Shown here: positions 18,787-39,031 of the stretch, one piece after another
How the letters are laid out: every line of letters starts with the position of its first letter
How positions within the stretch are numbered: the stretch's first letter is position 1
Assembly: GCA_016490735.1 (NCBI GenBank)
Contig: JAEMWC010000386.1
Coordinates: 221,501-285,500 of the forward strand
Direction of reading: 5' to 3'
Source: Pachyseris speciosa
Lineage: Eukaryota; Cnidaria; Anthozoa; Scleractinia; Pachyseridae
Length of the DNA stretch: 64,000 nucleotides
Program-made: the position numbers and the translations under genes
Notes under the pieces: generated by a model
What the model was told of the DNA's origin: nothing
Database searches by the model: none
The model's input: the letters and a program-made list of their open reading frames with translations, nothing else

Positions 18787-19112
18787 AGTAGTATAGTGTT
18801 TGGGGGTACGAAATCATTTTATCTCGTTTTCCCCAAACTACTACTACCTTCTGATCTCGTATTCTGGAATATATAGTTATTTAATTTGATGGAATATATA
18901 GTTATTTAATTTGATGGAATATATAGTTATTTAATTTGATGGAATATATAGTTATTTAATTTGATGGAATATATAGTTATTTAATTTGATGGAATCTATA
19001 GTTGTTCAATCTGATGGAACCAAGGTCAGCACACTTCATAAAATGCGTGACATTCTCGGAAAAATCACCAAGCGTGACATTCTCGGAAAACAGGGAATGA
19101 GTCATCGCCTAT
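18787..19112 (+). repeat. Polinton left terminal inverted repeat, 326 bp
   Basis: This is the reverse complement of 38706-39031. I read both arms base by base and saw no mismatch. The outer 79 bp are unique sequence, followed by six 25-bp tandem units and then a segment with two direct copies of GCGTGACATTCTCGGAAAA. Identity ends at CGCCTAT. Confidence 0.95.
18866..19015. repeat. 25-bp tandem repeat within the left TIR (six units)
   Basis: Five identical units GGAATATATAGTTATTTAAT+TTGAT are followed by one diverged unit (GGAATCTATAGTTGTTCAAT+CTGAT). The mirror array is at 38803-38952. Confidence 0.95.
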
Positions 19113-19155
19113 CATGTGTTAGCTGCATAAAGAAATAATATCTCATATAATATAG

Positions 19156-19719
19156 ATGAGTTGTAATTTAGTAATCCACAATGAATTGAAGAATATGGGG
19201 GAGTTGACATGTCCTTTTTGTGATCAGCTATTGGTCAAAGTTGTTAAAAGTGTGAAAGCACCTTGCTGTGATAAACAGAAAATGTTTAATGATGATGGTG
19301 AAAATGTTTGTCTAAATTGTGGTTCAGTCCACGGCTATGACTATTGTAAGGAGTACGTTGACTTTCATAATAATATGTATAAAATACGGCGAAAATCTGT
19401 ATATCACCGGAAGTACCATATTGAAAATGTGATAAATGGTATATGTTGCAAGAATAGATTTCAAATTTCAGTAAAAGATAAGGGTAAAATATTGAAAATA
19501 TTCGAAGAGATAGACACTATCATCCCTTCGGTGAATAAGAATCGTAAAAGAATGATAAGCACCAAATTTATGCTTAAGCAAATATTCATAATGCTTGATC
19601 TACCATTTGATGAAATAATAGTTACAAGATCAAAGAAGACATTAAAATTTTATGATCAATATTGGGTTGAGATTCTATTGTTGAGATTTGATAAGATTAT
19701 TCGTATTATAAAGCAGTGA
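19156..19719 (+). CDS. VLTF3-like zinc-binding protein
   Basis: 187 codons. Cysteines at residues 19, 22, 37, 38, 52 and 55 form CPFC and CLNCG-type knuckles, followed by the basic YHRKYHIENVI stretch near residues 83-93, which resembles the conserved block of poxvirus/NCLDV late transcription factor 3 relatives. In those viruses the factor drives late genes through the viral polymerase. Polintons encode no RNA polymerase, so the partner here is unknown. It is the only rightward gene at the left end and starts 44 nt inside the TIR. A TCTC lies 15 nt before the ATG. An internal ATG at 19195 could be the real start. The frame is intact. Confidence 0.6.
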   Translation: MSCNLVIHNELKNMGELTCPFCDQLLVKVVKSVKAPCCDKQKMFNDDGENVCLNCGSVHGYDYCKEYVDFHNNMYKIRRKSVYHRKYHIENVINGICCKNRFQISVKDKGKILKIFEEIDTIIPSVNKNRKRMISTKFMLKQIFIMLDLPFDEIIVTRSKKTLKFYDQYWVEILLLRFDKIIRIIKQ

Positions 19720-20194
19720 ATTTTTCATCATATTTCAGTAGGTACTTATCAATAATTGGACTATTATCAGTCACATAATCATCGATATTCTTCATTGAGA
19801 TTTGTATACTTGAAGCATCAAAATCACCACTTCTCAACTTGTCTTTTATTGAATTGAGTAGATGTTGATAGCTTTGATAAGCATATGTGCAATTCTGGAT
19901 TTTCAAATCTAGGTTTTTATGCTTCATCCACCCTTGTATCAAAAGTGATGCTGTACTGATGGCTACCAAACTAACACCACCTGTTGCCACACTTGCGGCG
20001 AGACCCCCAGTTGCAAAGATGATGGATAAGGAATTCCCCAGTAATTTCCATTTTTTGAACCTTTTAACAGCCTGTTTATGAGCCCAACACTTTCCGTGAT
20101 ATGTGTGGTAATAGGCTTTTAATTCATTTACCTGATCTTCTGTTAATTCACCTGAAATATGGTTCCAGCTGAATATGCTTTTTCGCTCTTTCAT
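19706..20194 (-). CDS. Two-helix hydrophobic protein of unknown function (SLATT-like layout)
   Basis: 162 codons, intact, overlapping the 3' end of the convergent VLTF3-like gene by 14 bp. Residues about 51-88 form a long hydrophobic block rich in Gly/Ala/Ser (SIIFATGG...VSLVAISTASLLI) able to make one or two membrane helices. It is flanked by a basic KRFKKWK stretch and a C-terminal predicted helical region. The layout recalls SLATT-type proteins, which place two membrane helices before a soluble helix, but sequence similarity is not demonstrated. A role in membranes or virion entry/exit is only a guess. Confidence 0.55.
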   Translation of the reverse strand: MKERKSIFSWNHISGELTEDQVNELKAYYHTYHGKCWAHKQAVKRFKKWKLLGNSLSIIFATGGLAASVATGGVSLVAISTASLLIQGWMKHKNLDLKIQNCTYAYQSYQHLLNSIKDKLRSGDFDASSIQISMKNIDDYVTDNSPIIDKYLLKYDEKFTAL

Positions 20195-20203
20195 ACAATA
20201 TGC

Positions 20204-20623
20204 TTATATAACGATTCTGTTCAACACACAGTACCACAAACCAGACAATTGCCCACTTAGAGGTGATAACTTACTAATTTTAGTCGTCAAGAAAGACGGT
20301 AGAGCATAAGAATATCCTCTATCAAGTGCATGTTTGACATAAAACCTACCGAAGGCATCGTGTAATATACCATGTGTCTGTAATGTATCAATCCAACCAA
20401 GAGTATGCTCCAAAAAATGTGTTAAGCAGCCTTCACCAGGACCGATTAATCCAATGCCTATATGCTCCTGGATAATATCTCTCACTTCAATATATTTGTT
20501 GAAATGTTTGTGATATAGAAACTGGTAAACCAAAGCTGATTTCAAAATCCTCTTATCAACACCAGGGTTTTTCCGTTCAGCATCCCGAATGAACCATCGT
20601 ACAAATCTTATAATCTGCTTCAT
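20204..20623 (-). CDS. Unrecognised Polinton protein
   Basis: 139 codons, intact, 9 bp downstream of which the next leftward gene begins. The N-terminus is basic and amphipathic (MKQIIRFVRWFIRDAERK), followed by a compact, probably helical region with conserved-looking GPGEGCLTHFLEHTLGWID and a small hydrophobic C-terminus. It starts 18 nt after the stop of the fibre gene on the same strand, so co-transcription is likely. I do not recognise the family. Its tight spacing and good coding character argue that it is real. Confidence 0.55.
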   Translation of the reverse strand: MKQIIRFVRWFIRDAERKNPGVDKRILKSALVYQFLYHKHFNKYIEVRDIIQEHIGIGLIGPGEGCLTHFLEHTLGWIDTLQTHGILHDAFGRFYVKHALDRGYSYALPSFLTTKISKLSPLSGQLSGLWYCVLNRIVI

Positions 20624-20641
20624 AATAATTGATTACATAAT

Positions 20642-37984: not shown

Positions 37985-38197
37985 CTGTTGACGTCACGCC
38001 ATATGATTTTTGTGAGTTTTAAAATACTGCCCTCTTTGGGGGGTTTCCCTTTCGAATGAGTCATCAAACTACGTCAGATTTTTCGCTTTTTACACATGCG
38101 TATTATTTTTTATCTTTGTAAATTTCATTTATGTACCACAAGCATAAAAATGAAAATACAAACGAAAATATAAGGGTTGTTTCACACAGATAAAGAG

Positions 38198-38309
38198 TGG
38201 CTTGTATGCAGAGTATACTAACGATTGGAAAAAGCGGGGGCCTTTCGTTAGCGAAATGTATACAAGCCACCCCATGGAATAATGAAAAACCCCCGCCGTT
38301 ATTCCATGG
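38198..38309. repeat. Nested inverted repeats
   Basis: GTGGCTTGTATGC (38198) pairs imperfectly with GTATACAAGCCAC (38258-38270), with an inner AGTATACTAACG/CGTTAGCG...GTATAC pairing. CCATGGAATAA (38272-38282) pairs perfectly with TTATTCCATGG (38299-38309). Confidence 0.7.
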
Positions 38310-38609
38310 GTTGAAAAATAAAAAAAATGAAAAATAAAAAAATGAAAAATTAAAAAAATGAAAAATAAAAAATGAAAAATAAATAATCACCCTTAGATGG
38401 TGTCGGATTGTTGGGTAGAGCTATAGTGAAGCTTCGGCTTCTCAGAAGTGCCGGTTCAATCTCAAGCCGGAGGGTGAAAAAAACAAATAAACAAATAATT
38501 GGCCCCAAGAGGGTCTGATAGGGCCAGAGCGGAGTGGAGGTGGGAAAGACATAAATGATAGTGCTCTGGTGGTGTGGAGGTGGGAATTCAAAAAAACAAA
38601 ACAAAAAAA

Positions 38610-38665
38610 CCTCTCATGAGGGACGGGTGGTGATTCAAATTCCAAATTAAGTCCCTCATGAGAGG
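38610..38665. repeat. 15-bp perfect hairpin with 26-nt loop
   Basis: CCTCTCATGAGGGAC at 38610-38624 is the exact reverse complement of 38651-38665. Each arm also contains the palindrome CTCATGAG. It lies 41 bp inside the right TIR. Confidence 0.85.
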
Positions 38666-38705
38666 TTCTGGTGGCCACCAGTTTTGCTATTTTTTTTCTG
38701 CAGCT

Positions 38706-39031
38706 ATAGGCGATGACTCATTCCCTGTTTTCCGAGAATGTCACGCTTGGTGATTTTTCCGAGAATGTCACGCATTTTATGAAGTGTGCTGACCTTGGTT
38801 CCATCAGATTGAACAACTATAGATTCCATCAAATTAAATAACTATATATTCCATCAAATTAAATAACTATATATTCCATCAAATTAAATAACTATATATT
38901 CCATCAAATTAAATAACTATATATTCCATCAAATTAAATAACTATATATTCCAGAATACGAGATCAGAAGGTAGTAGTAGTTTGGGGAAAACGAGATAAA
39001 ATGATTTCGTACCCCCAAACACTATACTACT
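38706..39031 (-). repeat. Polinton right terminal inverted repeat, 326 bp
   Basis: Mirror image of 18787-19112, including the same number and order of 25-bp units. Identity of length and sequence between arms suggests recent insertion or conversion between arms during protein-primed replication. Confidence 0.95.

Follow-up and report, generated by a model that had tools for sequence, protein, structure and literature searches.

In the giant virus CroV, a TCTA motif flanked by A/T marks the late genes (PMC5294985; PMC8547959; PMC13196603), and poxvirus late promoters are described as combining a core with a downstream AT-rich initiator that lies across the transcription start (PMC5294985). Here we analyzed 64,000 nucleotides of the Pachyseris speciosa genome (contig JAEMWC010000386.1, positions 221,501 to 285,500, forward strand; hereafter the window), which contain a Polinton of 20,245 bp at window positions 18787-39031. 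Nine open reading frames (ORFs) of this element, mainly of virion type, are preceded by a positioned bipartite motif, TCTAA-N8-TAT, and the element also carries an ORF for a VLTF3-like late transcription factor. How Polintons time particle production is, to our knowledge, an open question; a promoter that is checkable in any Polinton, alongside a candidate factor encoded by that element, opens late-gene control to testing. The open-licence literature searched, mostly at listing level, yielded no published promoter of an animal Polinton. The main texts of PMC11071296 and PMC11071308 contain no VLTF or promoter terms, and PMC10120064, where in one network only the cnidarian capsid genes among those of metazoans fall outside the main Maverick-Polinton cluster, contains neither these nor the term transcription factor.

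The Polinton motif resembles that of CroV/ChlorV and of mavirus and type 4 EMALEs in its TCTA core, its AT-rich surroundings and its location close upstream of genes. The initial annotation had pointed to the CroV/mavirus late motif, and the A/T-flanked TCTA described for these viruses (PMC8547959; PMC5294985) bears this out as a likeness only. In the Polinton the core reads TCTAA, and the TAT that follows it at a fixed 13 nt may set it apart from the CroV and mavirus sites. The Polinton also differs from these viruses in that the motif stands before mainly virion-type genes, the element has its own VLTF3-like gene, and the surrounding genome is animal-like. With poxviruses it shares the arrangement of core and downstream AT-rich initiator as well as a VLTF3-like protein; in contrast, poxviruses are described as having a TAAAT initiator and a viral RNA polymerase (PMC5294985), whereas the Polinton has TAT and no polymerase subunit was seen in it.

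The nine candidate promoter sites are as follows, with distances given from TCTA to the start codon:

21628..21644, minus strand: TCTAA-N8-TAT, TCTA at -17 of the fibre-like ORF 20923-21627
25210..25226, minus strand: candidate promoter site, TCTA at -17 of the collagen/fibre ORF 23884-25209 (Collagen domain)
25297..25312, minus strand: candidate promoter site, TCTA at -16 of the 24-codon ORF 25222-25296; outside the training set, matrix rank 5
25950..25965, minus strand: candidate promoter site, TCTA at -16 of the packaging ATPase ORF 25725-25949 (Pox_A32); CAT replaces TAT
25970..25985, plus strand: candidate promoter site, TCTA at -16 of the coiled-coil ORF 25986-26768
26821..26836, plus strand: candidate promoter site, TCTA at -16 of the putative penton ORF from 26837
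27867..27882, plus strand: candidate promoter site, TCTA at -16 of the putative major capsid ORF from 27883
30812..30827, plus strand: candidate promoter site, TCTA at -14 of the 51-codon ORF 30826-30981; TAT overlaps the ATG; outside the training set, rank 7
30994..31010, plus strand: candidate promoter site, TCTA at -17 of 31011 (a weak DUF5679-like piece lies downstream); outside the training set, rank 9

All of these positions agree with the initial annotation: TCTA lies 16 nt before 25986, 26837 and 27883 on the plus strand and before 25949 and the 24-codon ORF at 25296 on the minus strand, 17 nt before 25209 and 21627 (minus) and 31011 (plus), and 14 nt before the 51-codon ORF at 30826 (plus). 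The extended form that it described, TCTAACACAAT-NN-TATATG, was likewise confirmed and occurs only at 25970 and 27867 in the whole window. At 25950-25985, the ATPase and coiled-coil starts diverge 36 nt apart with TCTAA on each strand, which would make an unusually compact two-way promoter.

We compared the position of TCTA with chance expectation, choosing ORF starts by rule (first ATG, longest non-nested ORFs). TCTA at -14 to -18 preceded 5 of the 22 ORFs of at least 100 amino acids (aa), against a mean of 0.36 in dinucleotide-shuffled upstream regions, and none of 2000 shuffles reached five; for ORFs of at least 60 aa the count was 6 of 29, against a mean of 0.56, and again no shuffle in 2000 reached it. 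The positioned TCTA in this element is thus not a chance observation. Other ATGs in the element had TCTA in this interval in 12 of 858 cases. Among k-mers found in at least three of the 29 upstream regions (-26 to -10), TCTAA ranked first of the 5-mers and ATCTAA first of the 6-mers. TCTA was not enriched window-wide (425 found, 510 expected), so its position alone is special, and AT content does not explain it (0.77-0.87 in regions with the motif, 0.73-0.97 in those without). Past the integrase ORF, at 32784, a TCTAACATATATG site runs into an ATG followed immediately by a stop, perhaps the relic of a lost gene.

The motif has a second half. All nine sites read TCTAA, and in eight of them TAT starts 13 nt after the T of TCTAA, the ATPase site having CAT. 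Across the 50 TCTAA copies in the element, TAT occurs at offset 13 in 12 and at each of 16 other offsets in 0-5 (P 1.7e-07; 2.9e-06 after 17 offsets). TAT follows TCTAA in this way at 8 of 9 promoter sites, compared to 4 of 41 other sites in the element (Fisher 7.6e-06) and 3 of 99 in the flanks. The full string of TCTAA-N8-TAT plus ATG is found eight times in the element (shuffle mean 0.32, maximum 4). Distance to the ATG, by comparison, varies (16 nt in five sites, 17 in three and 14 in one). Such spacing, locked to TAT and not to the ATG, would be expected of an initiator that acts at the DNA level, and it bears on a reading in which the motif acts in translation or coding, either as leader context or because the upstream genes share C-terminal codons that spell TCTAA. 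At 26821, 27867, 30812 and 30994 the motif, judged by eye, does overlap or abut the tail of the upstream frame. Against this, the spacing is fixed to TAT, and coding constraint cannot yield the two divergent ATPase and coiled-coil sites because the gap between them is intergenic; we regard a translational or coding origin as improbable.

A weight matrix built from six training sites was used to score both strands of the 64-kb window. Its top nine positions were the six training sites and three others from the list above (25312, 30812 and 30994, at ranks 5, 7 and 9), and in leave-one-out scoring four sites remained strong, with 0 to 4 other positions as high. Rank 11 fell at 27619, exactly 16 nt upstream of the start at 27635, with a TAAAA core that may represent either a variant of the motif or a chance match. 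That the whole pattern arose by chance in AT-rich DNA is conceivable in that the element contains 137 copies of TCTA, a sequence of only four bases. The shuffles (0 of 2000), the matrix, the TAT spacing and an outside control, in which none of 52 ORFs of at least 100 aa from six AT-rich IMG/VR contigs had TCTA at -14 to -18, make this explanation extremely improbable.

We then considered which genes carry the site. From 34 candidate rows, 18 were removed as internal, broken, antisense or of ambiguous start (25725, 27196, 28446, 28717, 29706, 30176, 22619, 23572, 23791, 20878, 26642, 30662, 31023, 31274, 31948, 31900, 33446 and 34424), leaving a table of 16 starts; TCTA at -14 to -18 was found at 9 of the 16 retained starts and at none of the 18 dropped ones. 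Virion-type starts carried the site in six of eight cases (21627, 25209, 25949, 25986, 26837 and 27883 with it; 27635 and 29242 without), and other starts in none of five (19156, 20194, 20623, 32922 and 34179), a difference with a Fisher value of 0.016 that uses hand-entered counts and hand-assigned starts. The names penton and major capsid are putative and taken over from the initial annotation; profile, PDB sequence and fold attempts gave no confirmation of them. Of the two promoter classes that the initial annotation proposed, a positioned TCTA(A) element before mainly virion-type genes is supported, and the second, early promoter class did not survive the shuffle test described below.

The element also encodes a candidate for the factor that would act on these sites:

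19156..19719, plus strand: VLTF3-like late transcription factor gene, 187 aa, uninterrupted

This ORF matched Pox_VLTF3 narrowly above the cutoff (26 bits, cutoff 25; E 8.5e-06; aa 77-174 on profile positions 63-161 of 168), and the match is preceded by a candidate zinc ribbon (A2L_zn_ribbon; E 7.8e-04, 19.5 bits, below the cutoff of 22.9). The Pox_VLTF3 and A2L_zn_ribbon models derive from the same poxvirus protein. TCTA is absent from the 90 nt that precede the VLTF3-like gene itself. A Pfam scan of 30 element ORFs showed no RNA polymerase subunit, so the host or another virus would have to provide the polymerase. The initial annotation had suggested viral transcription machinery supplied in trans; this is not the simplest arrangement given the element's own VLTF3-like gene, which that annotation did not mention, although the polymerase itself would still be external.

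One form of supply in trans is helper use as inferred for mavirus and CroV, in which the late machinery of a co-infecting giant virus would read the TCTAA promoters. The A/T-flanked TCTA is the CroV late motif and also occurs in type 4 EMALEs including mavirus (PMC8547959; PMC5294985), and the EMALE type with the TCTA motif is described as the only one that responds to CroV (PMC10945749). Nevertheless, a late factor encoded in cis, for which the VLTF3-like ORF is the candidate, would make an outside giant virus unnecessary; the motif is confined to part of the element's genes, and the common core of only four bases could be convergent. We also know of no giant virus of such a host, and consider helper use unlikely. 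A second alternative is an ordinary host RNA polymerase II core promoter, composed of a TATA-like box and an initiator, with no temporal class. Some genes must need the host polymerase if the element has no subunit of its own, as the scan of 30 ORFs suggests. However, a TATA box lies about 30 nt from the transcription start, far more than the 13 nt between TCTAA and TAT; two divergent copies are packed into 36 nt; and five replication-type or other starts lack the motif. An ordinary promoter without timing likewise seems to us an unlikely account.

The reading that we prefer, and to which we give about an even chance, is that TCTAA-N8-TAT is a distinct core promoter of late type for virion-type genes, and that the VLTF3-like factor encoded by the element probably acts on it together with host RNA polymerase II. 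TCTAA would be the recognition half of TCTAA-N8-TAT(A), and the TAT 13 nt downstream would be an initiator on or just before the ATG, such that virion mRNAs would have almost no leader, much as with late promoters of the poxvirus type. The PolB, Bro-N and VLTF3-like genes, which would be early, lack the TCTAA element and presumably depend on ordinary promoters read by host RNA polymerase II. The likeliest candidate for the switch is the VLTF3-like zinc-ribbon protein which, once made, would bring host RNA polymerase II to the TCTAA promoters.

Several points weigh against this late-promoter reading. The 43.7 kb of flanks also contain one complete TCTAA-N8-TAT plus ATG string, and leave-one-out scoring was weak for 26821 (63 equal-scoring positions in the element) and 25965 (32). 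Genes were sorted into classes by hand with the motif already in view, and the motif-bearing small ORFs at 25296, 30826 and 31011 were left out of the class table. Two late-looking plus-strand ORFs, a small lysine-rich one at 27635 and a basic one at 29242, lack TCTA, and the virion names penton, capsid and coiled coil have no profile support. The evidence on classes comes from one element, in which the protease, PLA2 and integrase starts are ambiguous. For the factor, the VLTF3 match barely exceeds its cutoff and the zinc-ribbon match lies below its own; a single-sequence fold of the ORF had a pLDDT of 36, too low for use, and a search of PDB sequences gave one unrelated match (E 0.99).

Described viruses and elements offer parallels for parts of the late-promoter reading. 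In a megavirus, the cluster that includes a VLTF3-like gene is reported to be expressed before the late cluster with capsid and packaging-ATPase genes (PMC11464507). Mriyaviruses are described as having VLTF3 without RNA polymerase subunits, with nuclear use inferred (PMC11253617), so that VLTF3 combined with host polymerase has a parallel; they differ in being Nucleocytoviricota of 35-45 kb without a DNA polymerase (PMC11253617). Adintovirus-like regions of Amoebidium, which are Polinton-type and carry VLTF3, PolB and capsid genes, as the present element putatively does, differ in an ichthyosporean host and a size of about 30 kb when complete (PMC11244446). There, demethylation is reported to have reactivated 144 adintovirus genes, no capsid gene reactivation was seen, and the authors suggest missing genes (PMC11244446). 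In our analysis, the same pattern is what a late class that needs a newly made factor would give. A bolder form of the late-promoter reading, which we offer tentatively and hold to be somewhat doubtful, is that an animal Polinton of about 20 kb without its own RNA polymerase contains a complete giant-virus-type early/late switch, in which the VLTF3-like protein, as a promoter-specificity factor, would retarget host RNA polymerase II to TCTAA-N8-TAT. If true, VLTF3-type late control would predate Nucleocytoviricota or be more mobile than they are, and Polinton-type elements could be the source, not the recipients, of the TCTA promoter seen in mavirus and CroV. VLTF2 and VLTF3 homologues are stated to be undetectable outside Nucleocytoviricota (PMC11253617); the VLTF3-like ORF bears on this statement, to which the Amoebidium elements are already an exception (PMC11244446).

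For the replication genes, the initial annotation had proposed a shared box, ATATTTAAAC-R-CAG. Two boxes were located:

32863..32876, plus strand: ATATTTAAACACAG box upstream of the Bro-N ORF at 32922; candidate early or TATA-like element, not above chance
34122..34135, plus strand: ATATTTAAACGCAG box upstream of 34179 (an ORF overlapping the start of the PolB ORF); not above chance

The box is thus present before Bro-N and 34179, and it does not form a motif class beyond chance. The shared TATTTAAAC, at 32864 and 34123, lies 58 and 56 nt before 32922 and 34179 and has only these two copies in the element. Its pair score of 11 was reached in 41 of 1000 shuffles of the pair, and the best pair reached 11 in 35 of 40 shuffles of the 16 upstream regions; longer matches of chance type exist, e.g., 13 nt common to the VLTF3 and PolB upstream regions. 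A separate early promoter class (ATATTTAAAC) was rejected since the pair shuffles gave no shared motif beyond chance; the box may be TATA-like, and two copies make no class. Both TATTTAAAC leaders contain a minimal upstream ATG-codon-TAA (32884-32892 and 34142-34150). Another sequence, AAAGAAATAATA, is found in the element only at 19129, 27 nt before the VLTF3-like start, and at 34149, 30 nt before 34179, and was not above chance in the pair test. The giant-virus early motif AAAATTGA has three copies on one strand of the Polinton, and no accepted start follows closely on any of them.

No relative emerged when viral contigs were scanned six times with proteins or peptide patterns. A looser PolB pattern led to one GC-rich viral contig without a tblastn match to the VLTF3-like ORF, integrase, or ATPase and PolB pieces; none of its seven ORFs of at least 100 aa had TCTA at -14 to -18. 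A scan of genome contigs gave two, neither with a tblastn match to those Polinton pieces, and the ATPase piece had no tblastn match among phages. Six contigs from a promoter-pattern scan are the ones used above as the outside control, with a count of 0 in 52; a bare motif match is therefore no evidence of kinship.

By its ends and integrase, the element is a Polinton/Maverick. The ends and the putative polymerase are as follows:

18787..19112, plus strand: left terminal inverted repeat (TIR), 326 bp, 100% complementary to 38706-39031
38706..39031, minus strand: right TIR, 326 bp
34424..37984, plus strand: DNA polymerase B ORF, 1186 aa, with polymerase B motifs by eye and an endonuclease VII-like stretch

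GACTCT stands outside both of these long TIRs as a 6-bp target duplication. The integrase is of retroviral type (Pfam rve 6.6e-08 and Chromo 1.7e-07; PDB integrases from 2.1e-07), as expected of Polintons. Membership is further indicated by a packaging ATPase, with Pox_A32 matches of 2.5e-08 and 1e-05 on two pieces, both above cutoff, and by an adenovirus-type protease (Peptidase_C5 9.9e-04, 19.3 bits, below the cutoff of 21.3). Other Pfam matches among the element ORFs were PLA2, Bro-N, collagen/fibre domains and Pox_VLTF3. The 1186-aa ORF matched no PolB profile or sequence in Pfam or PDB sequence searches, its motifs being recognized by eye only; its aa 446-497 resemble Endonuclease_7 (5.5e-05, 23.4 bits, cutoff 23.6). 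For double and single jelly-roll capsid proteins, the putative capsid pieces had no profile or PDB sequence match, and the single-sequence fold of one piece had a pLDDT of 34, likewise too low for use.

Interruptions affect several reading frames. Both the ATPase and the Bro-N profile matches are split between two ORFs, and overlapping neighbour ORFs suggest that the penton, capsid and fibre frames are also broken; because of these interruptions, many ORFs begin with an ATG that does not mark the start of a gene. There are homopolymer runs of 6-9 at 27171, 25763, 33279 and 33295, in the stretches where the penton, ATPase and Bro-N frames shift, and some of these breaks could be assembly errors. 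At the two capsid breaks the homopolymer runs are at most 5. The peptide WCLYYLLERQ is common to the tandem pieces 30176-30520 and 30620-30829, as if the C-terminus of the protease had been duplicated.

The flanks contain ORFs matching Laminin_G_3/Pentaxin and reverse transcriptase and few long ORFs, which fits an animal genome; tblastn with the VLTF3-like ORF, integrase, ATPase and PolB pieces found no second Polinton piece there. The TIRs appear to contain 25-nt tandem units (18865-19019 and 38799-38953), judging from the 25-nt steps of nested repeat matches. An apparent older inverted-repeat element encloses the Polinton, with one arm of 35 nt (18752-18786) adjoining the left TIR and the other (39252-39286) starting about 220 nt to the right of the right TIR. 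The SLATT family has been linked to bacterial immune effectors, and within the Polinton a minus-strand ORF at 19706-20194 weakly resembles a SLATT effector with two membrane helices (E 0.003, below cutoff).

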